From positions 1 to 36,636 of IMG/VR virus record IMGVR_UViG_3300031702_000022: a stretch of 36,636 nucleotides of DNA; one strand, given 5' to 3'. The stretch is from a virus. Below, one piece after another: positions 4,016 through 34,414 of this stretch; the first letter of the stretch is position 1; every line of letters starts with the position of its first letter. The notes beneath the pieces are model-generated. The model had not been told where the DNA came from. It saw only the letters and a program-made list of their open reading frames with translations, and did not search any database. A program made the translations under genes and the position numbers.

Positions 4016-6349
4016 TCAATCTTCTAAAAACTTTGTTGCCACCAATCTATGTGCCTTTCGACCTTTACCTTCTCCCTCTTCGATCAATGATACATCCTGT
4101 GACTCAAGAATCAAGTAATTAAATATTTCTTTTCGCATGTTGCTATCCGTAGACTTGAACGGGTGTAGCTTCATTAGATCCTTTTTCATTATTCCTTCAA
4201 ATCCCATTTTGGCAATAACATTGTAAGCATCGCGGTATCGCTTGTCAATGGAATTCTCAACCATCTCGAATTCAATGTATTCTATCAGTTGCTCAAAGCA
4301 AAAGTCAACAAGAGCAATGGAGAAATTAACACTATCCAAACCAACTGACAGGGCGTATGGGTCTTTTGACAGCTCCATCGTCAAAGAGATACGCATAGCC
4401 TTCTCGCGGTTACGTACGATCATCAACTCCAATCCATTCTTTCTCAGCTCTTTCTTTCGAGTCATAATATCGTCTTCATACGAGTCGAGTCTGTCAAACG
4501 CCTCAGCTGTAAACGGCAGGACGATAGGCTCCATTGGCTTGTCGTAATCGTTACGGCCTTGTGAATTCTTTCCTCGATTGTGGTGCAGTACTCTACGCTC
4601 GATCGTTTCAATCCATGACAGTATCTCTTGAGGTACAGCCCGAGACTTTGAATTCTTATTCATCTTCTGATCGCCTTCCTGAGCAAACATAACAATGAAT
4701 CGATTCAAGAAACCATCACTAATCATCATCTTAGTCATTGACTCTGACAATTTATGTGGCGTAGTCATACCAAGCAGGCTAACAGACGGTCTGTTGATCG
4801 TTAGTGAGTTCTGCTCATCACCAGTCAGCTTATTCTTTAAGATCTCACTCAGGCTCGTGAAGGAGTCTGACGAGTAGGTGCTATCCTGCTTACTGAAAAG
4901 CTCCATCCAAGCTTTAACCTCAGACAGTTTGTTCTCAGATACATTCTTAGATCCGATTATCTGCATCCAGTGAGCCATTTCGTCTTTAAAGAACAAAGCT
5001 CGTGGCTCGCTGTATAGCTCAGTGATGATTGCACTCTTGCCGGTAACTTCACCTTTGATAATACTGCCTTGGTTTGCAGCCTGTAATATCTTAGATACGA
5101 TTTTGTATGAGTGCTCCTTACCAGCGCCCGTCTCTGCAACGCTCATTGTGTAGACACTTGAGTAATTGTCAAAGTCAGTAGTGAAGTCACGACCGATAAC
5201 GACAGCACACATAGCCAATGAAGCATTCAGTGATGGCATGTAGAGCGGGTACTGAGCAGTAGAGAGCATATAGCTAACAGAGTCACCCATCACACCTTTG
5301 ATCTTTTGAAGCTCAGTAGGTATGTCGTTAAACTCGATGACCTTGCTCTCATCTTGCTTTTTCATTGAGAACTTCTCAGCGCGTCCCTCCTCGAACTTTC
5401 TTACGAATGCTGACAGGTCTATCTCATTACCGTAAGTCTGCTCCCAGCCGTTGTCATACGCCAGCTTGAAGATCGTACCTGCAGTTCTTGGCGTTGAAGT
5501 GTGGTTGGTGTTGGCAAAGGATGCCCACTTCTTTTCCATCGCTGTGCCGTCATGCTTTTGAGACTTATCACTCCACTCATCCCACAGCGCGTAGCCATTA
5601 TCAGAGTTTGAGGTCTCGTAAGACAGTGCCATGCCGATGTTAATCCACACGTCATAGTCAGTGTTCTCATCGTTTGGTATAGCCTCCAGAGCCTCGCGTA
5701 GCTCGTCTAGGTTTGATGATCCAGCCTCGTATGCCGAGTCCTTCACAACATCTGGTCGCTCGATAAGGTCTAGTAAGGCTTGAGGCGCATCGTCAATACC
5801 ACGGATGTTTGATTTATCGTGCTGAATCGCTTCGTATGAAAAGCCGCTCTTATGGAATGAACCACAGCCCACAACAAAGCTACCGGCAGACAGAAAGTCA
5901 ATACCTTTAATTTCTTTCAGGATCTTAACAGTCTTAATGTCTTTGGACTTCTTAAAGTAAAAGTGCTTACCGCCAGAACCCGTCTTAATGACAAAGTTAC
6001 ACTTGGTCTCAATGTCAAAGCCAAGCATTGCGTTCAGTTCTTCTATTGCGTTCTCGTTATTTCTTGGATCGAAGTCAACAACAATATCGTCAGCCGTTAA
6101 TACAATTCCGTAAGACTGAGCAAATATCTTCTGAGATATAAACGCCTCAATCTGATCCATAGATGGTAAGGGTGCCTTGCTCCAGCCTGTCATGCGCGGG
6201 TGCTTGTATTGGTTATTGCAATCTTCCATTCCGCACATGCAATTACCGTTTGAGTAAACCCCACGGATTGGCATTACATGATAACCGCAATCTGCGAAAT
6301 CAAGAAGCCACTCCTGCATGGTTTCATAGCTCCAATTCTTATCTATCAA
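4016..6349 (-). CDS. Primase-polymerase fused to a DUF3987-type ATPase/helicase
   Basis: This 777-residue replication protein has three parts. The N-terminal third is a prim-pol domain: GYHVMPIRG, a Cys cluster (CMCGMEDC), the acidic motif VVDFDPRN, the GSGGKHFYF motif and GIDFLSAGSFVVGCGS. A PriCT-2-like helical segment follows at about residues 215-300 (DYDVWINIGMALSYE, GYALWDEWSDKS). The C-terminal half is a DUF3987-like P-loop ATPase with Walker A AETGAGKEHSYK and a Walker B-like ALFFKDEMAHW. The gene starts at TTG 6349, supported by GGAGG seven nt upstream. It would prime DNA and probably unwind it. It is the only polymerase-like protein visible, so the main replicase is either outside the window or supplied by the host. 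Confidence 0.85.
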   Translation of the reverse strand: MIDKNWSYETMQEWLLDFADCGYHVMPIRGVYSNGNCMCGMEDCNNQYKHPRMTGWSKAPLPSMDQIEAFISQKIFAQSYGIVLTADDIVVDFDPRNNENAIEELNAMLGFDIETKCNFVIKTGSGGKHFYFKKSKDIKTVKILKEIKGIDFLSAGSFVVGCGSFHKSGFSYEAIQHDKSNIRGIDDAPQALLDLIERPDVVKDSAYEAGSSNLDELREALEAIPNDENTDYDVWINIGMALSYETSNSDNGYALWDEWSDKSQKHDGTAMEKKWASFANTNHTSTPRTAGTIFKLAYDNGWEQTYGNEIDLSAFVRKFEEGRAEKFSMKKQDESKVIEFNDIPTELQKIKGVMGDSVSYMLSTAQYPLYMPSLNASLAMCAVVIGRDFTTDFDNYSSVYTMSVAETGAGKEHSYKIVSKILQAANQGSIIKGEVTGKSAIITELYSEPRALFFKDEMAHWMQIIGSKNVSENKLSEVKAWMELFSKQDSTYSSDSFTSLSEILKNKLTGDEQNSLTINRPSVSLLGMTTPHKLSESMTKMMISDGFLNRFIVMFAQEGDQKMNKNSKSRAVPQEILSWIETIERRVLHHNRGKNSQGRNDYDKPMEPIVLPFTAEAFDRLDSYEDDIMTRKKELRKNGLELMIVRNREKAMRISLTMELSKDPYALSVGLDSVNFSIALVDFCFEQLIEYIEFEMVENSIDKRYRDAYNVIAKMGFEGIMKKDLMKLHPFKSTDSNMRKEIFNYLILESQDVSLIEEGEGKGRKAHRLVATKFLED

Positions 6350-6364
6350 AATGCAACCTCCAAG

Positions 6365-6904
6365 TTAATCATAAATACCTACAATTCTTTTTATTTCAGT
6401 CAAGTCTTTTGGGTGCCAGAGATTATATACTGGAACTCCGTAGTCATGCGCTATAGATACCGCTGTAGCAGTTCCACCTTTAACTTTTTTTATTCCTATC
6501 GGCTGAGCATAGCAAATCAGCACCTGAGATGGGTTATCTAGTCCAAACCCAAGAACTTGATATGCGTTTCTAGCATGAAGAGCCTTCACTCCTTGCTTTA
6601 GACTTTCCCATGCCGGATGGTGCATTGATGCAATGTACATGGCCTTGTCGTAATTGTAAAGGCTTTTTGCATTTAAGTGAGCACCGCACGCTGAAGTATG
6701 ACCATTAAACCCATCCCAAGGCAAATATATCTCAGTGTTTGCACCTGCCCCTACCTCGAATGCAGTGTCAGACCCAACAGCGGCACCTGAACGTACCACG
6801 TAGAGGTTTCTGGCCATCGCCTTAGCAATCATCTTCATCTCATTAAAGATACTGTCGGGGACTTCTCTAGCGCCTACCCCGGTGTAGTACTTAGGGCTAC
6901 TCAT
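6365..6904 (-). CDS. SLOG/DprA-like Rossmann-fold protein
   Basis: This 179-residue protein has features of the SLOG superfamily, which includes DprA and LOG proteins. They are YYTGVGAREVP at the N-terminus, VVRSGAAVGSDTAFE (Gly-rich nucleotide or ssDNA-binding turn), IYLPWDGFN, and GGTATAVSIAHDYGVPVYNL at the C-terminus. Phage members are usually annotated as DNA recombination-mediator A-like. Whether it binds ssDNA like DprA or a nucleotide ligand cannot be read here. Its start overlaps the stop of the upstream gene (ATGA), so translation is probably coupled. It belongs to the leftward operon driven from 7375. Confidence 0.7.
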   Translation of the reverse strand: MSSPKYYTGVGAREVPDSIFNEMKMIAKAMARNLYVVRSGAAVGSDTAFEVGAGANTEIYLPWDGFNGHTSACGAHLNAKSLYNYDKAMYIASMHHPAWESLKQGVKALHARNAYQVLGFGLDNPSQVLICYAQPIGIKKVKGGTATAVSIAHDYGVPVYNLWHPKDLTEIKRIVGIYD

Positions 6905-7346: not shown

Positions 7347-7375
7347 ACTATAAGGGTTTGAGCCTCTGAAGTCAA
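7347..7375 (-). promoter_or_regulatory. Leftward promoter of the replication module
   Basis: On the minus strand TTGACT (7375-7370), a 17-nt spacer and TATAGT (7352-7347) lie about 35 nt upstream of the first leftward gene. It is divergent from the promoter at 7646-7674. Confidence 0.75.
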
Positions 7376-7377
7376 TT

Positions 7378-7471
7378 AAAAGAAAAAAAGGAGAATAAGA
7401 AGGATTAATCCCCCTTGGTATTTAGCCCCTCTTTCAAAATCTCAGAGAAAAAATTCTCCTTTTTTTCTTTT
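7378..7471. repeat. 19-bp perfect inverted repeat, 56-nt loop
   Basis: The left arm at 7378-7396 is AAAAGAAAAAAAGGAGAAT, and the right arm at 7453-7471 is its exact reverse complement. The arms are purine or pyrimidine only apart from the last base pair. A closely related inverted repeat lies at 29958-30062. Confidence 0.85.
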
Positions 7472-7552
7472 TATTAGAATCAGGGAAGAACCAATAGAAT
7501 ATAAGTAGTATTATTATTAAAAGAATGTATATATTATAGTACTTGTAGCCGT

Positions 7553-7566
7553 AGTTAGCGCTAACT
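7553..7566. repeat. 14-bp perfect palindrome AGTTAGCGCTAACT
   Basis: This self-complementary 14-mer sits between the divergent promoters, about 80 nt upstream of the rightward -35. It is a candidate operator for a dimeric regulator. I see no second perfect copy in the window. Confidence 0.7.
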
Positions 7567-7645
7567 TACCACTTGGTTTTTACGTCTCAATAAAAAAGTA
7601 GATTTCTCTTTTAAATTGATATTAATTACTTTTAATTAAAACATC

Positions 7646-15407: not shown

Positions 15408-17086
15408 GTGAATTTGAAGTAATTAGCGCAAAGCGTAAAAGACTGACGGAATCTGGTGAGGTGCCCGAGTGGTACACCACTCAAGGTCTGCTGATGTTTG
15501 AGCGTAAGTACGCATTTAACGGAGAAACAGTAAGAGAATCTTTCTTACGAGTGGCGAATCACTTGGGTGCATTAGTGCCTGAGATGGAAGGTGCTAAGCA
15601 GAAGTTTTTTGACCTGATGTGGAGCGGTAAGCTGGCCCCCAGTACGCCTGTTCTATGTAACGTTGGCACTGGTAGGGGTCATCCTGTTAGTTGCTCTGGC
15701 GGCTTCATGGGAGACTCTATAGACGAGTTCTATAAGAACCACCATGAGAATGCGATGCTTTCTAAGAAAGGCTACGGCACCTCATCTTACTTGGGTTCTA
15801 TCCGACCTCGCGGCGATAAAATATCAAGTGGTGGTGAAGCGGATGGTGTTATCCCTCAGTTTGACTCTGCTATAGATGTTGTGCGGAAAGTATCGCAAGG
15901 CAACAATCGTCGTGGTAATTGGGCTGGCTATTTGGAAGTTGATCACGAGGACTTTTACGAGTTGGCTGGATACGTCCAAAAGAATCCTGCAAGCGCTAAT
16001 GTGGGCTGGATATTTAAAGATGCTTTCATTGAGCGCCTAGTCGCTGGCGAGAAGGATGCTGTTGATCGCTTCAATAAGGTCTGTTACCTTCGCGCAAGAA
16101 GTGGTAAGGGATACATCTGGAAGTCTGACACTGCAAACAAGTTATCACCGCAGGCGATTAAGAATTCAGGCATTACGATTAAAGGTTCAAACCTATGCAG
16201 TGAAATTGCACTGCCACAGGATGCGGAGCACACCTTTAGTTGTGTTTTGTCCAGCATTAACTTACTGATGTGGGATAGCATTGAAGACGAAGACATTGAG
16301 TGGATGATTGTATTTTTGGATGCTGTTGTCACCGAGATGCTTAACTTAGCCAAGGGTCATTCTGGGTTTGAGAGAATAGTTCGGTTCACTGAGAAGTCCA
16401 GAGCATTGGGTCTTGGTACACTGGGTTTGCACTCTTACTTTCAGAGTAAGATGCTGCCATTCGATAGCTTTGACGCACGACTGCTGAACACGTCTATATA
16501 CTCACGAATTCAGAAGTGCGCCATCAGATCTTCACAGAATCTTGCCAAGGTATACGGTGAGCCTGAGTGGTGCAAAGGTACAGGTATGCGTAATGCTACC
16601 ACTATGGCCATAGCACCCAACACAAGCTCTGCACTGCTGTGTGGTGGCGTAAGTCAGAGTATTGAGCCATTGGTAACCAATGCCTTTAATCAGCCTACGG
16701 CAGCCGGTGAGATGACTCGAATGAATCCTCAGCTCGTAGAAACTTTAAAGGAAAAGGGCATCTTCAGTGTAGCGCTAATGAAGGATTTGGCGATGAACTT
16801 CAAAGGGTCTGTCCAGCATATGACTGAGCTTACTGACCACGAGAAGTTAGTATTCAGAACCGCATTTGAGATTGATCAAATGTCATTAGTGCAGATGGCA
16901 AGTTCGCGACAGAGATTCATTGATCAGGGTCAGTCACTCAACCTGTTCTTCTCTGAAGATGAAGTTGAGATAGCTAACGTCATTAAGGCGATACTGTTAG
17001 ATGAGTACATTAAAGGAGCTTACTACCAGCGATCTATGCGAGGTGCGACAGGAAGCACTGGTGATTGTTTAGCTTGCGAAGGTTAA
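15404..17086 (+). CDS. nrdA: Class I ribonucleotide reductase, alpha (catalytic) subunit
   Basis: This 560-residue subunit reduces ribonucleoside diphosphates. It shows STPVLCNVGTG, VSCSGGFMGDS (one redox Cys), KGYGTSSYLG, GSNLCSEIALP (the thiyl-radical Cys region), FSCVLSSINL (partner Cys), APNTSSALLCGGVSQSIEP and KGAYYQRSMRGATG. It ends in CLACEG, a C-terminal Cys pair re-reduced by thioredoxin. It is shorter than E. coli NrdA (about 760) and lacks an N-terminal ATP cone, so dATP feedback inhibition at that site should be absent. ATG 15404 overlaps the nrdB stop; an in-frame TTG at 15398 is possible but less likely. Confidence 0.93.
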   Translation: MSEFEVISAKRKRLTESGEVPEWYTTQGLLMFERKYAFNGETVRESFLRVANHLGALVPEMEGAKQKFFDLMWSGKLAPSTPVLCNVGTGRGHPVSCSGGFMGDSIDEFYKNHHENAMLSKKGYGTSSYLGSIRPRGDKISSGGEADGVIPQFDSAIDVVRKVSQGNNRRGNWAGYLEVDHEDFYELAGYVQKNPASANVGWIFKDAFIERLVAGEKDAVDRFNKVCYLRARSGKGYIWKSDTANKLSPQAIKNSGITIKGSNLCSEIALPQDAEHTFSCVLSSINLLMWDSIEDEDIEWMIVFLDAVVTEMLNLAKGHSGFERIVRFTEKSRALGLGTLGLHSYFQSKMLPFDSFDARLLNTSIYSRIQKCAIRSSQNLAKVYGEPEWCKGTGMRNATTMAIAPNTSSALLCGGVSQSIEPLVTNAFNQPTAAGEMTRMNPQLVETLKEKGIFSVALMKDLAMNFKGSVQHMTELTDHEKLVFRTAFEIDQMSLVQMASSRQRFIDQGQSLNLFFSEDEVEIANVIKAILLDEYIKGAYYQRSMRGATGSTGDCLACEG

Positions 17087-18164: not shown

Positions 18165-18326
18165 ATGGACGGCTACAGTTTTATTGAATTAGTTTCTGCG
18201 TTATGGCCGATATTAGCTGGGTTCGTGGGCTTAATATTTTGGCTAGCAAAGAGCTATGCCGACATCGAAACTTTAAAGGAAAAGGTAAGAGTGCTGTACG
18301 ATCTATACAATAAGCAGGATAAGTAA
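18165..18326 (+). CDS. Small single-pass membrane protein
   Basis: This 53-residue protein has an N-terminal transmembrane segment (about 8-28: LVSALWPILAGFVGLIFWLA), then a charged helix (DIETLKEKVRVLYDLYNKQ) with heptad character. ATG 18165 follows AAAGG. It could be a holin-like or membrane-anchor protein. No lysis gene is adjacent; the nearest cell-wall hydrolase is about 3.8 kb downstream. Confidence 0.6.
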   Translation: MDGYSFIELVSALWPILAGFVGLIFWLAKSYADIETLKEKVRVLYDLYNKQDK

Positions 18327-20684: not shown

Positions 20685-21089
20685 ATGCGACCTAAGAAAA
20701 CAATTGGAGAGCTACCAGAGGGATGGTATGAGACTATTGTCTCCCTTGGATCTCAAGGTAAAACACAATTGTCTATACACAAAGCCCTTGGAATCTCACA
20801 GAGCTTATTTGAGCGATTCAGAGATGAAGAGCCGGAATTTAAGCAGGCAGTAAAGGAGTTCCGAATGGAATCCTCACTGTTCTGGACTGACCTTGCCCGA
20901 GCCTATGCGCTGGGTGACCCTGACGTTATTAATCAATTCAGTAACTTCAACGCACTAAAATACAACATCCTCAACCGTCCCCATATCGGCTGGACTGACA
21001 AGCAGGTAGTTGAGCAGGAAACCGTTGTGACTGTCTCAGAGAGCGCTACAGACCTGTTTCATAAGATGATGAACGCTGATAAGAAGTAA
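20685..21089 (+). CDS. Terminase small subunit-like HTH protein
   Basis: This 134-residue protein is probably the DNA-recognition subunit of the packaging motor. GKTQLSIHKALGIS and LFERFRDEEPEFKQAVKEFR form an HTH followed by the PEF-containing helix seen in phage TerS proteins. LFWTDLARAYALG and LKYNILNRPHIGWTDKQ match the later helical part. It lies about 12 kb from the large subunit gene, whereas the pair is usually adjacent. It is followed by a strong terminator. A different HTH protein is possible. Confidence 0.62.
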   Translation: MRPKKTIGELPEGWYETIVSLGSQGKTQLSIHKALGISQSLFERFRDEEPEFKQAVKEFRMESSLFWTDLARAYALGDPDVINQFSNFNALKYNILNRPHIGWTDKQVVEQETVVTVSESATDLFHKMMNADKK

Positions 21090-26472: not shown

Positions 26473-26943
26473 ATGACACGTATAAACACTATTGATGTAA
26501 AGCTATTGGCAGACCAGCATTTGATGGCGGAGTATCGTGAGCTACCTATGGTTAGCTCTGCATTGCGACGATCCCTTGCGGGTAAGAGTGCTGGTAATAA
26601 CGTGTTGTCAAGAATACCAAAGCAGTACACCCTAAATAAAGGCCATGTCCTATTCTTTTACAATAAAGGTAAGTTCTTATCCAATCGATACAATCAACTG
26701 ATTGAAGAGCTATATGATCGTGGTTACAGCATCACACCTAGTGATAGGGATGTATCGTTTGACGTGCACTTTGACCGACCTTCATTCGGCAATGACTGGT
26801 CTGCCTGTGATGCGGATCATGTCATCAACTGTGATCGTATATTGCAGCGTATCAGTGAAAAGCCCAACTGGTACAAGATGAAGGGTCGTGTGATCAGTGA
26901 GGGTGATTACATTGACATGATCAAGGCTCGATATTATAAGTGA
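26473..26943 (+). CDS. denV: Pyrimidine-dimer DNA glycosylase / AP lyase (T4 endonuclease V type)
   Basis: This 156-residue repair enzyme nicks DNA at UV-induced cyclobutane dimers. The N-terminus MTRINTIDVKLLADQHLMAE, then YRELP, is nearly that of T4 DenV. Thr2 is the catalytic amine after Met removal, and Arg3, His16, Arg22 and Glu23 are kept. Arg26 of T4 is Met here. KGHVLFFYNKGKFLSNRY, ELYDRGY and the end motif KPNWYKMKGRVI also match. It is slightly longer than T4 DenV (138). ATG 26473 follows TAGGAG, which fixes the N-terminus required for catalysis. It has its own promoter and terminator, which fits acquisition as a single-gene cassette. UV exposure in surface water is a plausible selective reason. 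Confidence 0.95.
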   Translation: MTRINTIDVKLLADQHLMAEYRELPMVSSALRRSLAGKSAGNNVLSRIPKQYTLNKGHVLFFYNKGKFLSNRYNQLIEELYDRGYSITPSDRDVSFDVHFDRPSFGNDWSACDADHVINCDRILQRISEKPNWYKMKGRVISEGDYIDMIKARYYK

Positions 26944-26968
26944 TGTGCGCATAAATAGTTGGCGTAAA

Positions 26969-27152
26969 TTTTAAAGGAAAAGTACTTTTTTAAAGGAAAA
27001 GTAACTTTCTATAAATTTAAAGGAAAAGTACTTTTTTAAAGGAAAAGTAACTTTCTATAAATTTAAAGGAAAAGTACTTTTTTAAAGGAAAAGCAGATTT
27101 GTAAAAATTTAAAGGAAAAGCAGTTTTTTATAGGAAAAGCAACTTTCTATAA
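26969..27152. repeat. Tandem array: four 46-bp units, each with two AAAGGAAAAG boxes
   Basis: AAAGGAAAAG boxes begin at 26973, 26992, 27019, 27038, 27065, 27084 and 27111, with a variant at 27130. Spacing alternates 19 and 27, giving an exact 46-bp period. The first two and a half units are nearly identical; the rest diverge (GTA to GCA after the box). Confidence 0.9.
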
Positions 27153-27175
27153 ATGTAAAAACATTCCATTTTCTC

Positions 27176-27216
27176 AAAAATTAATATTTTCTGTCAAAAA
27201 ATTAATATTTTCTGTC
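27176..27216. repeat. Two 21-bp direct repeats
   Basis: AAAAATTAATATTTTCTGTC occurs at 27176-27195 and 27197-27216, immediately after the 46-bp array. Confidence 0.85.
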
Positions 27217-27272
27217 AGAAAATAATCTGAAAAAAATCCAGAAGTCCAATACTTTTTAGCTATATTAAAACC

Positions 27273-27305
27273 CTTTTTAATAACTTTTTTGACAGTTATT
27301 AAAAG
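27273..27305. repeat. AT-rich inverted repeat
   Basis: CTTTTTAATAACT (27273-27285) and AGTTATTAAAAG (27294-27305) are complementary over 12 bases with one extra T in the left arm. The loop is 8 nt. Confidence 0.7.
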
Positions 27306-27362
27306 TGATTTTAATATGCTTTTTTATTCTAAAATATTGCTTGCAATTACTGTTAGGCGTTT

Positions 27363-27389
27363 TAAGCGCTTTTACTGGCTACCCTTGCC
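27363..27389 (+). repeat. Direct repeat copy 1 (TAAGCGCTTTTA...GCTACC)
   Basis: TAAGCGCTTTTACTGGCTAC, then CCTTGCC, resembles 28493-28518 (TAAGCGCTTTTATTGCTACC, then GTGCCC). One copy precedes each of the next gene groups (27592 and 28667). Confidence 0.55.
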
Positions 27390-27522
27390 TAGTGGGTTGG
27401 TATGGTGTCGATCGTTCCACCTTGCTGTTTTTAGTGTTTTTTTGCTACGTATAAGGAGTAAGGACGCCAAAAATCATGCCAACTATTGCCAGAAAATAAA
27501 TTAATTTATTTTAATAAATTGC

Positions 27523-27591: not shown

Positions 27592-28329
27592 ATGAGAATC
27601 AAAAAACCTTTAGGCGTAGTCGTATATGACGGACCGTCAATGTTAGACGGTCAACCGATTATTGTAGTGGCTACCCTTGAAAGTTCAAACGCCAAAACGG
27701 GCAACATGGTTCAGACGTGGATACTGGCAAAAAATACTAATCCGGTCGAAGCGATCAAAACAGGATTAGACCTTTCAACTTGTGGTTCGTGCGTCCATAG
27801 ACGATACCTAGGCGGCGCGTGCTATGTTAACGTTGGTCAAGCCCCTCTTTCTATATTTAAGACTTTTCAGGCGGGAAAATACCCAATTGATTCCAAGGAT
27901 ATGGACCAGTTTTTTAAAGGCCGATCGATCCGGTTTGGTTCCTACGGTGACCCGGCGGCTGTTCCTGTTAGCGTTTGGAAGCGTTTAAAATCACTAGCGC
28001 ACGCTACCACTGGTTACACCCATCAGGCTGGGCACAAGAATTTTAACCCTGATATTTTAAAATATTGTATGCTTTCTGCCGATACTCCGCGCCAAGCAAT
28101 GGCGGCGCACAAAAAGGGAATCCGGACTTTCAGAGTCAAAACCCCAGAAAGTGATTTTTTGCCCAATGAGATTGAATGCCTTTCGGATTCTAAGGGCTTA
28201 AGCTGTATACAGTGCAAAAAATGCAACGGCGCAACCAAAGGTAAAAACATTGCTATAAATATTCACGGCAAGCTAAAAGGCCGATACACCAAAAAATACA
28301 GTGCCGCTAATATTATCGCCGTAGGGTAA
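27592..28329 (+). CDS. Conserved Cys-motif phage protein (CGxCxHR / YGDPAAVP / TGYTH family)
   Basis: This 245-residue protein belongs to a family I recognise from many phages and environmental sequences but whose role I do not know. It shows GVVVYDGPSMLDGQPIIVVA, DLSTCGSCVHRR, ACYVNVGQAPLSIF, IRFGSYGDPAAVPVSVWKRL, TGYTHQAG, SADTPRQA and, near the end, CIQCKKCNG. Two Cys clusters suggest metal or Fe-S binding. ATG 27592 follows AGGA; the longer in-frame start lies in the promoter. It is the first gene to the right of the iteron-like array, so an initiator-type role is conceivable but not supported by a motif. Confidence 0.65.
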   Translation: MRIKKPLGVVVYDGPSMLDGQPIIVVATLESSNAKTGNMVQTWILAKNTNPVEAIKTGLDLSTCGSCVHRRYLGGACYVNVGQAPLSIFKTFQAGKYPIDSKDMDQFFKGRSIRFGSYGDPAAVPVSVWKRLKSLAHATTGYTHQAGHKNFNPDILKYCMLSADTPRQAMAAHKKGIRTFRVKTPESDFLPNEIECLSDSKGLSCIQCKKCNGATKGKNIAINIHGKLKGRYTKKYSAANIIAVG

Positions 28330-29140: not shown

Positions 29141-29179
29141 GCCTGTAATTTATGGTGGCATGATAGTTGCAAGGATACC

Positions 29180-29280
29180 CTTATGCCTTTTAGTTATAGT
29201 CATCATATGATTTGGTTATATCATAAAAGACTAATATAGCTTATGCCTTTTAGTTATACCCTTATGCGATTTGGTTATAT
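29180..29280. repeat. Duplicated module CTTATGCCTTTTAGTTATA ... GATTTGGTTATAT
   Basis: CTTATGCCTTTTAGTTATA occurs at 29180-29198 and 29240-29258, each followed after about 10 nt by GATTTGGTTATAT (29209-29221 and 29268-29280). More ATTTGGTTAT copies lie at 29442 and 29503. Confidence 0.8.
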
Positions 29281-29957
29281 GGTACGGCTTGGCACAGTAC
29301 TTGCTAGGCAATAGGCTTAGACTATGATACCGATAGGCAGGCCCTATGTTAGGGTGATTGTAAAGATTGTGTAAAGGCTATTGACTGAACCCCGATTGTA
29401 TGATGGGGCACGCTTATTCTTTTTAAGCCTATCAATAGATCATTTGGTTATATGTAAGGGAAGTGTAAAGGCTATAGACAAGGGCCACGAATTGTGCTAG
29501 TGATTTGGTTATTCCAAAAGAGTCTAAGGATAGACCCAAAAGGCATAAGGCACCCCCCTCACACCCCAAGATCAAAGGCAGGACCAAGCAGCCCCTCCCA
29601 CTGAATAAATTTTTACTATTTTTGAAAAAGCCCTTTTTCCCCTCTACCCTCCCCCATAAATTTTTTTTACTATTTTTACAATCTCGGTAAACCCTCCTAG
29701 ATCGACCTGTGAGAGATCTTACTCGTATCCGTCATGGTTATCTACCAAAGCCCTTAAATCCTCTCTGAGACGCTCTCAGGTGTCTTCATAATCAAACCTC
29801 CACAGTGTTTACCCCTCATCACCATATCACTAGCAATACCCCCTCATCAAGCTATTTCTATTAAAAAGAATAAAAAGGAATAAAAAAGTAAATTCTCCTT
29901 TTTTAATGCTGCTCTACAGCCCTACTCCCACGTACCTCTCAGCGTTTGGACGCATTA

Positions 29958-30062
29958 AAAAGAAAAAAAGGAGAAATTCGGCCTAAAGGTTTCTTACTAA
30001 ACCCCCTAAACCACTACTTTTAAATCTGAACCCACCCAAGAAAATTCTCCTTTTTTACTTTT
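29958..30062. repeat. 18-bp inverted repeat related to the one at 7378-7471
   Basis: The left arm AAAAGAAAAAAAGGAGAA (29958-29975) and the right arm TTCTCCTTTTTTACTTTT (30045-30062) pair with one mismatch. A third half-copy, TTCTCCTTTTTTAAT, starts at 29893. Confidence 0.75.
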
Positions 30063-30405
30063 AATTGGGTTATTTATTTTTTGGACATGTTGGTGATTAA
30101 ATTCAAAGGTTTTTTATTTGACCTCTAAAACCTCTTAGGTCTTGCTATCACTGTCTCTTAATAGTATAGGGAGTATTACTAATAGAGATTTATATATATT
30201 TTATTATATAAGTCCAGTACATAATGACCACTCAATAAAAAATGAGATTTCCCTTTTTAATTACTTTTAATTAGATTTAAATAGCAATATTACCTGTTGT
30301 TAGCCTAAATAGCTACGAATGGTTACCAAATAACCACAAAATGATCAAAAAGGTGTATTTAATATGAAATAATAATCACACATAAATAGTTTTCTTTATG
30401 CTTAT

Positions 30406-32947: not shown

Positions 32948-34414
32948 ATGCCAAGACAATACCCTACACCAGAAGAACAAACGATAATTAGCACGATGTT
33001 CTCTGATAAATCAGAGAGTTGGCTTGCTACGCGACAGTTTATCCACTCAGAGCCCCTGAAGGCCCTTGATGTGCTGGGCGCTCTGGCAAGCAAAGACCCA
33101 AAGTTCCTTGATATTCTTCACGACTTCGACCTGTGGGCCAGACCTGAGCAGTTCATGGACTGGGGTGACTGGGATACCGTAATGCTTCTGTGTGGGCGGG
33201 GTTTTGGTAAGAGCTGGTTCGCATCCAACTATATTATTGACCAAGCCAAGAAGTCAAAGATACGTATCGCCCTGTGGGCATCCGACCTGAAGTCTGCCAA
33301 GCGTGTTAACTGGCTAGGGTCATCCGGTATCATCCAGAACATGCACCCTAACGACCTAAGAGACTCTGACTTTAACAAGACGGACTTGACCATTACATTC
33401 CCCAATGGAAGCACCGTTGTGACCTACACGGCAGAGTCTTTCGAGCGATCACGGGGTGACTCAGTGCATATGTGCGTCCTCGATGAGCTGGCGGCTTGGT
33501 CATACGGCCCACAAGCCCTAGAGGCAGCTCGACTTATTATGCGATTGGGTGAAAAGCCCAAGATGCTCATCACTACCACACCTAGATCGCTGGCTATGAT
33601 TAAAGACATTGCCGTGGACAGTGACGTGAAGCTAATCAAAGGTGTCACTACAGATAACTATTATTTGCCAGAGTCTTATGCCGAGACGCTGCAAAAGAAG
33701 CTCACAGAGCGCATGTGGCGGCAGGAAGGTCTCGCTGAGATCTTAGATGACAACCTATACGCCATGTTTCAGATGAGCGACATAATGAACAACAGGATTA
33801 CGGGTGACTTTGACTTCTCTACACTAAAGAAACTCGTGATTGCAATAGACCCGGCTGTTACCTCGAATGAGAACTCGGATTTGACCGGCATCATGGTCTG
33901 CGGCATGGGTTATGACGGTAAGTATTACGTTATTGAAGACTCCTCTATGGAGATGGCATCCCCTGAGAAGTGGAGCAGTCGTGTCGTGTCTTTGTATAGA
34001 AAGTACAACCAGCACGAGTGCCCAGTCGCTATCGTGGCTGAGAAGAACCAAGGCGGCGACCTAATCACTTCTGTGATACGCAATGCAGCCCGAAACATCA
34101 GAGACATGATTTTGCCACCCGTAACGCTGGTTCACGCATCACGAGGCAAGGAAGTGCGAGCTGAGCCTACCTCTGCACTGTATGAGCAGCAGCAAGTCTG
34201 TCACGTTGGTGCGTTTGAGGATCTTGAGTTGCAAATGACCGAATGGAACCCCACAGACAAGAACACTAAATCACCTGATAGGCTAGACGCTCTTGTGTGG
34301 GCTATTACGTCACTTTCTAAAGGCATGTCTGGCACAATAACATCTGGATATGGTGGCTATAATGAGCCGGGTATGGATAGGACTGCAATTAATCCTTACT
34401 GCGGGTATAAGTGA
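32948..34414 (+). CDS. terL: Terminase large subunit
   Basis: This 488-residue protein is the DNA-packaging motor ATPase and nuclease. The ATPase half has LLCGRGFGKSW (Walker A, about 80-90), SDLKSAKR, MCVLDELAAW (Walker B with catalytic Glu) and MLITTTPRS (coupling motif). The nuclease half has VIAIDPAVT (first Asp), IVAEKNQGG and SPDRLDALVWAITSL (last Asp). The length is normal for the family. ATG follows CGGAGG. The CsrA-like and portal genes follow directly; the TerS-like gene is about 12 kb upstream. Confidence 0.95.
   Translation: MPRQYPTPEEQTIISTMFSDKSESWLATRQFIHSEPLKALDVLGALASKDPKFLDILHDFDLWARPEQFMDWGDWDTVMLLCGRGFGKSWFASNYIIDQAKKSKIRIALWASDLKSAKRVNWLGSSGIIQNMHPNDLRDSDFNKTDLTITFPNGSTVVTYTAESFERSRGDSVHMCVLDELAAWSYGPQALEAARLIMRLGEKPKMLITTTPRSLAMIKDIAVDSDVKLIKGVTTDNYYLPESYAETLQKKLTERMWRQEGLAEILDDNLYAMFQMSDIMNNRITGDFDFSTLKKLVIAIDPAVTSNENSDLTGIMVCGMGYDGKYYVIEDSSMEMASPEKWSSRVVSLYRKYNQHECPVAIVAEKNQGGDLITSVIRNAARNIRDMILPPVTLVHASRGKEVRAEPTSALYEQQQVCHVGAFEDLELQMTEWNPTDKNTKSPDRLDALVWAITSLSKGMSGTITSGYGGYNEPGMDRTAINPYCGYK

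Follow-up and report, generated by a model that had tools for sequence, protein, structure and literature searches.

Phage pac and cos sites usually lie beside or inside the terminase genes, a position that is not strictly defining, and the iteron origins of lambda and of plasmids consist of direct repeats followed by an AT-rich stretch, with near-regular spacing and the initiator gene adjoining. There is little understanding of how the terminase small subunit (TerS) chooses phage DNA, and beyond lambda, P22 and SPP1 its recognition sites are known in few cases. Known TerS sites extend from the simple 22-bp site of P22 to the multiple sites of SPP1 and lambda (PMC4669245). Lambda cosB holds three of them (R3, R2 and R1) in ~120 bp (PMC4737164, PMC4669245), and SF6 TerS binds pac DNA nearly regardless of sequence (PMC4737164). 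Here we describe a row of short repeats that is probably a docking site of a known general kind.

The DNA that we analysed (the window) is a linear 36,636-bp record, a fragment of the genome of an uncultured phage; IMG/VR record 3300031659_000078 is 100% identical to it across the 14.5 kb compared. On its left lie minus-strand genes for a helicase, a Cas4-like exonuclease, a ssDNA-binding protein, Sak4, primase and DprA. These are followed on the plus strand by genes for resolvase, thymidylate synthase, DHFR, PhoH, a sliding clamp and a ClpP-like protease, then by those for an A1-type DNA transfer protein and ribonucleotide reductase, two tRNAs and many small ORFs, and on the right by a denV-like glycosylase gene, the array, a phrog_2554 gene, an HNH gene and the genes for the terminase large subunit (TerL) and the portal. 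The features concerned are these:

20685-21089, plus strand: gene for the terminase small subunit (TerS), the proposed array-binding protein (phrog_309 family, structural match to Sf6 TerS)
26473-26943, plus strand: gene for a pyrimidine dimer DNA glycosylase (denV-like), upstream of the array (Pfam PF03013, E 7e-15; phrog_1183, E 2e-43)
26955-26963, unstranded: left arm, ATAGTTGGC, of a 9-bp inverted repeat; left bound of the conserved noncoding block
26970-27139, plus strand: direct-repeat array of eight TTTAAAGGAAAAG boxes, seven perfect and one with one mismatch
27176-27196 and 27197-27217, unstranded: two identical 21-bp repeats, AAAAATTAATATTTTCTGTCA, the second running into the operator-like palindrome TTTTCTGTCAGAAAA
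27262-27285 and 27294-27317, unstranded: AT-only 24-nt inverted repeat (88%) with 11 perfect pairs inside, partly broken in the close relative
27289-27317, plus strand: sigma70-like promoter, TTGACA-17-TAATAT, ~158 bp past the last box
27478-27486, unstranded: right arm, GCCAACTAT, of the 9-bp inverted repeat, where similarity to the close relative stops
27592-28329, plus strand: phrog_2554 gene, function not assigned, not a fixed neighbour of the array
32948-34414, plus strand: gene for TerL (PF17289, PF03237)

The preliminary description had reported repeated boxes at 19/27 spacing, and these were borne out. Perfect boxes start at 26970, 26989, 27016, 27035, 27062, 27081 and 27108, and the eighth, with its mismatch, at 27127, giving steps of 19, 27, 19, 27, 19, 27 and 19. 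All are asymmetric 13-bp direct repeats on the plus strand, irregularly spaced. TRF found a period of 46 (~26966-27159; 4.2 copies, 90% matches, score 311). Self-identity at this period was 0.95 over 100 positions and at most 0.55 in 300 Markov shuffles, and the 10-mer box was counted seven times in the array compared with at most once in any of 300 shuffles. The two 21-bp repeats said to follow the boxes are present, as identical copies. The gap was also rightly called AT-rich and gene-free: its GC content is 0.19-0.23 (~21%) compared with 0.42 for the window, and the sole ORF overlapping its end (27289-27504) was ruled out as a gene, because in the close relative the fourth codon, counted from its ATG, is a stop. 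What had been given as a '12-bp inverted repeat' is present as an inverted repeat, but with 11 perfect pairs within the longer 24-nt element.

Operator-like palindromic sites, CTGTCAAAAAA and TTTTCTGTCAGAAAA, lie 21 bp apart at 27188-27223 and recur at 27285-27296, over the -35 element of the promoter. The 9-bp inverted repeat ATAGTTGGC/GCCAACTAT has just two copies in the window, which enclose the conserved block. Two further perfect boxes lie inside genes (16744-16756 and 18272-18284) and are kept in the close relative; both fall within an identical 19-mer, GAAACTTTAAAGGAAAAGG, coding for ETLKEK, and are unlikely to be due to chance.

The locus shares with lambda and plasmid iteron origins the succession of direct repeats and AT-rich stretch, but its spacing is irregular (19/27, or 51-63 in a far relative) rather than near-regular, and no recognised initiator adjoins it. 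It resembles lambda cosB in its several asymmetric sites, which in cosB are TerS sites in ~120 bp (PMC4669245); cosB, however, has three sites of mixed orientation and an IHF site beside cosN, whereas here 4-8 boxes stand on the same strand, cosN was not found and the terminase genes are distant. With the pac site of Bacillus phage SPP1/SF6 it has direct repeats in common, which there mark the packaging start and go with an HTH-ring TerS, but in SPP1 the TerS gene and pac overlap, and binding of SF6 TerS depended little on the repeats of that pac (PMC4737164). The origin iterons of PLE satellites (RepA_N) are also short repeats in a noncoding region (PMC7145576, PMC8263062), but they are three ~30-bp semi-palindromic iterons accompanied by a known RepA, unlike the asymmetric 13-bp boxes of the window, where RepA was not found.

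A close relative, IMGVR 3300022200_004124 (G001; 12.9 kb, 91% identical), carries the same block at the same place, with seven boxes at steps of 19, 27, 27, 19, 27 and 19. Since the alternation of steps is broken there, the repeating unit is the box rather than a fixed 46-mer; the 46-bp unit with two boxes of the preliminary description survives as a period in the window and was ruled out as the functional unit. Unit number, which had been put forward for comparison among related phages, proved to differ, with eight boxes in the window, seven in G001 and four in the far relative. The idea of recent expansion is consistent with the difference of one box (7 versus 8), but the array itself was already in both lineages. 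It does precede a conserved-family gene, phrog_2554 at 27592, but in G001 the homologue of that gene (59%) lies farther from the array and other sequence comes first. Some pairs of the inverted repeat at 27262-27317 are broken in G001, which ruled out a conserved hairpin terminator, and the TTGACA-17-TAATAT promoter is kept.

As a yardstick we used the fourfold-degenerate sites of the window and G001 (23 gene comparisons, 949 sites), which were 81.9% identical, with 172 of 949 differing. The array (26972-27160) was 98.2% identical (167/170, plus one 19-nt gap), and the contrast of 3/170 with 172/949 differing sites (Fisher p = 3e-10) indicated strong purifying selection on it. Identity was 96.3% over 27161-27240, 92.2% over 27241-27330 and 86.6% over 27331-27487, the last being indistinguishable from fourfold sites (p = 0.17); from this region-by-region divergence we concluded that both the boxes and the 21-bp repeats are targets of selection. 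Local recombination does not explain the low divergence of the array, because 11 of 56 fourfold sites are changed in denV. Judged by these sequence comparisons, the array is a genuine control site under strong purifying selection, and the row of boxes is probably a docking site for several copies of one phage DNA-binding protein.

Searches of phage and plasmid DNA collections with the array region gave no match, and no array follows denV in the denV relatives elsewhere. Scans of viral contigs for box pair and triple patterns returned coding repeats, the close relative and one unrelated noncoding array. The latter, at ~6140-6640 of the unrelated viral contig 3300028175_000030 (L152), is a different noncoding tandem array, TATATGGTTTTCGGAAAAGCAATCCTTTTTT.

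The far relative is represented by two records, IMGVR 3300008007_000039 (G012; 35.7 kb) and 3300008009_000018 (G017; 41.3 kb), which overlap with one mismatch in 6.7 kb and were joined as a coordinate frame of 70 kb, syntenic with the window. Identities to the window are 61% for primase, 62% for A1, 57% for TerS, 30% for denV, 55% for TerL and 65% for the portal. We found four boxes (TTTTGGGGAAAAG, TTTTGGGTAAAAG, TTTTGGGAAAAAG and TTTTTTCGGGGAAAAG), 51-63 bp apart, where denV ends and just beyond. The motif TTTTGGG(G/T/A)AAAAG, which was written after the boxes were seen, matches just these four in the ~70-kb frame. Local alignment of the window block with all G012 windows was best at this place, by a narrow margin (score 20; best elsewhere 18.8, mean 12). 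Because the motif was defined after the boxes had been seen, the evidence that they are the homologous site is good but not conclusive. The AT-rich stretch that follows the boxes in the window and G001 is absent from this place in the far relative. At 42.1-44.2 kb of the joined frame, within the 2.3 kb upstream of the array, there are six extra same-strand GG(T)AAAAG cores compared with 0.9 expected.

Gene 20685-21089 encodes 134 aa that are 100% identical in G001. Alone, it matched TerS PHROGs weakly (E 0.003-0.02); in its family, five of six members matched phrog_309 (best E 1.2e-20), and it matches the annotated TerS of Pseudomonas phage AH02 and Acinetobacter phage Silvergun. For its AlphaFold model (mean pLDDT 75, with higher values over residues 1-60, an apparent HTH domain), Sf6 TerS was the top match both in Foldseek, with prob 0.95 but E 0.14, and in VIA-align (Z 6.4; next unrelated 4.8). 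The single matches are modest yet in agreement, and we identify the gene as TerS. Its relatives were not found in bacterial genomes, and the distant TerS relatives L166-L169 lack the box cluster. The TerS gene stands 12 kb upstream of the TerL gene, an unusual separation that also occurs in the far relative.

The array and this TerS co-occur in three of three phages (the window, the close relative and the far relative). Another genome, G010 (104 kb), has most of the replication genes in common with the window, the identities being 65% for primase, 57% for helicase and 63% for Sak4, alongside A1 (63%), portal (66%) and TerL (43%), and lacks a TerS of this family, a denV match and a similar noncoding array. 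TerS and denV were the only window ORFs tested that are common to the far relative but not G010, and this phyletic pattern favours TerS over the replication proteins as the partner of the array. The absences from G010 are weak evidence and possibly an assembly gap, because this linear record has its ends just where TerS and the array should lie. In Aeromonas phage phiA005 (TerL 50%), neither the array nor a detectable homologue of this TerS is present.

The reading that we slightly favour, with a probability of roughly 0.35, is that the array is a TerS docking array at which DNA packaging would start. TerS, a helix-turn-helix protein of the ring-forming kind, would dock on the boxes in several copies, with the DNA wound along the ring, which would let multiple HTHs contact multiple boxes. 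TerL would then be recruited and packaging begin at the array or close to it, making the array a pac or cosB-like site, placed between the genes for TerS and TerL. We infer that several copies of one protein bind the array and, with less certainty, that this protein is TerS and the process the start of packaging. At 23 bp on average, the spacing would suit a ring wrap in which HTHs are ~11 bp apart, as a matter of arithmetic and not of evidence. The box cluster occurs once per genome and not at many promoters, a pattern more in keeping with a function at one locus than with a general regulator. As the array lies ~6 kb from the TerS gene and ~6 kb from the TerL gene, neither in nor beside them, we claim no more than a possible pac-like function. 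A cut site was not found, and the contig ends near the array, taken as a guide to genome ends, do not coincide. A strongly constrained box array would also contrast with the near lack of sequence preference of SF6 TerS on pac DNA (PMC4737164), a point against the packaging reading. It is doubtful that the locus represents a packaging start of new layout, with 4-8 short same-strand boxes, a ring-shaped TerS, an intergenic position several kb from both terminase genes and extra same-strand boxes in nearby genes. The naturally varying box number (8, 7 or 4), paired with TerS variants, would make TerS recognition directly testable.

A replication origin is the rival that survives best, and we consider it rather unlikely. 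The boxes would be iterons for a phage initiator, the AT-rich 21-bp repeats would melt and replication would start at the array. Such a site would account for the arrangement in which direct repeats are followed by AT-rich repeats (~20% GC) and an inverted repeat, for the strong constraint on boxes and 21-bp repeats, and for the tolerance of 7 or 8 boxes. However, no known initiator gene adjoins the array and none was recognised by Pfam or PHROGs among the genes scanned, many small ORFs being unassigned; the AT-rich part is absent in the far relative, which may use another place; and G010, which may be incomplete there, has homologous replication genes without the noncoding array. Of the iteron-like site or origin first proposed, a functional cis site stands (conserved place, constraint above synonymous sites), but origin is not the best supported reading. 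The GC-skew switch looked for at the array did not appear: the cumulative minimum is at ~7.8 kb and the maximum at ~29.5 kb, with nothing origin-like at 27 kb, a weak test on a fragment because skew is dominated by gene direction. As to the partition-like site also suggested, no ParA/ParB-type partner genes were seen among the subset of proteins scanned in this fragment. If the array were an origin, it would be the first for this uncultured phage group; under either reading, a functional noncoding site was found through constraint.

Two further elements bear on the origin:

~7374-7645: element A, noncoding and AT-rich, between divergent replication operons
~29855-30290: element B, noncoding and AT-rich

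These accompany the replication genes in all three genomes (the window, the far relative and G010) with origin-like anatomy, which argues against the array as the origin. The best genome-wide match of A is B in each of the three, with scores of 66 in the window, 96.5 in the far relative and 83 in G010, compared with 49.5, 34.5 and ~31 for the best match other than B. Common to both elements are AAAAAGGA(G) boxes and stretches made up of A/T alone; in G010 there are also palindromes, for example TCGAACACTGTTCGA. The A/B pair may fit an origin better than the array does, as candidate twin origins or paired control regions. A and B also have inverted AAAAAGGAGAA boxes in common. In the window the runner-up match of A (49.5) is the array region, which may reflect just shared AT-richness.

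We regard transcription control as more unlikely still. A phage regulator on the array, perhaps also on the TTTTCTGTCAGAAAA palindrome, would switch the promoter at 27289-27317 together with the small genes that follow. The conserved TTGACA-17-TAATAT downstream of the array and the operator-like palindrome between them are consistent with this idea, as is the distance from last box to TTGACA, 158 bp in the window and 155 bp in the far relative; this comparison of distances was made post hoc, and TTGACA occurs often in that region of the far relative. Against a regulator, box clusters occur at no other promoter and the downstream genes differ among relatives.

An RNA element is improbable. The array would lie in the 3' part of the denV transcript, where, for example, its eight GGA motifs would soak up a CsrA/RsmA-type protein. 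Each window box does contain GGA, a conserved promoter stands ahead of denV and the MFE z-score is -2.5, but the fold arises mainly from A/T-rich linkers pairing repeat to repeat, the far-relative box GGGTAAAAG has no GGA and no Rfam match was found. Some other function is marginally less probable than this. Least probable of all is a mobile or exchanged module spanning 26955-27486 between ATAGTTGGC and GCCAACTAT, whose inverted arms are kept in both relatives and at whose right arm similarity stops, but which occupies the same place in both phages, shows no target duplication and has no other copy in the phage or plasmid collections.

Outside the array, the gene-free stretch at 29175-29550 of the window contains scattered TTTGGTTATA and CTTATGCCTTTTAGTTATA repeats, which are partly kept in the close relative.
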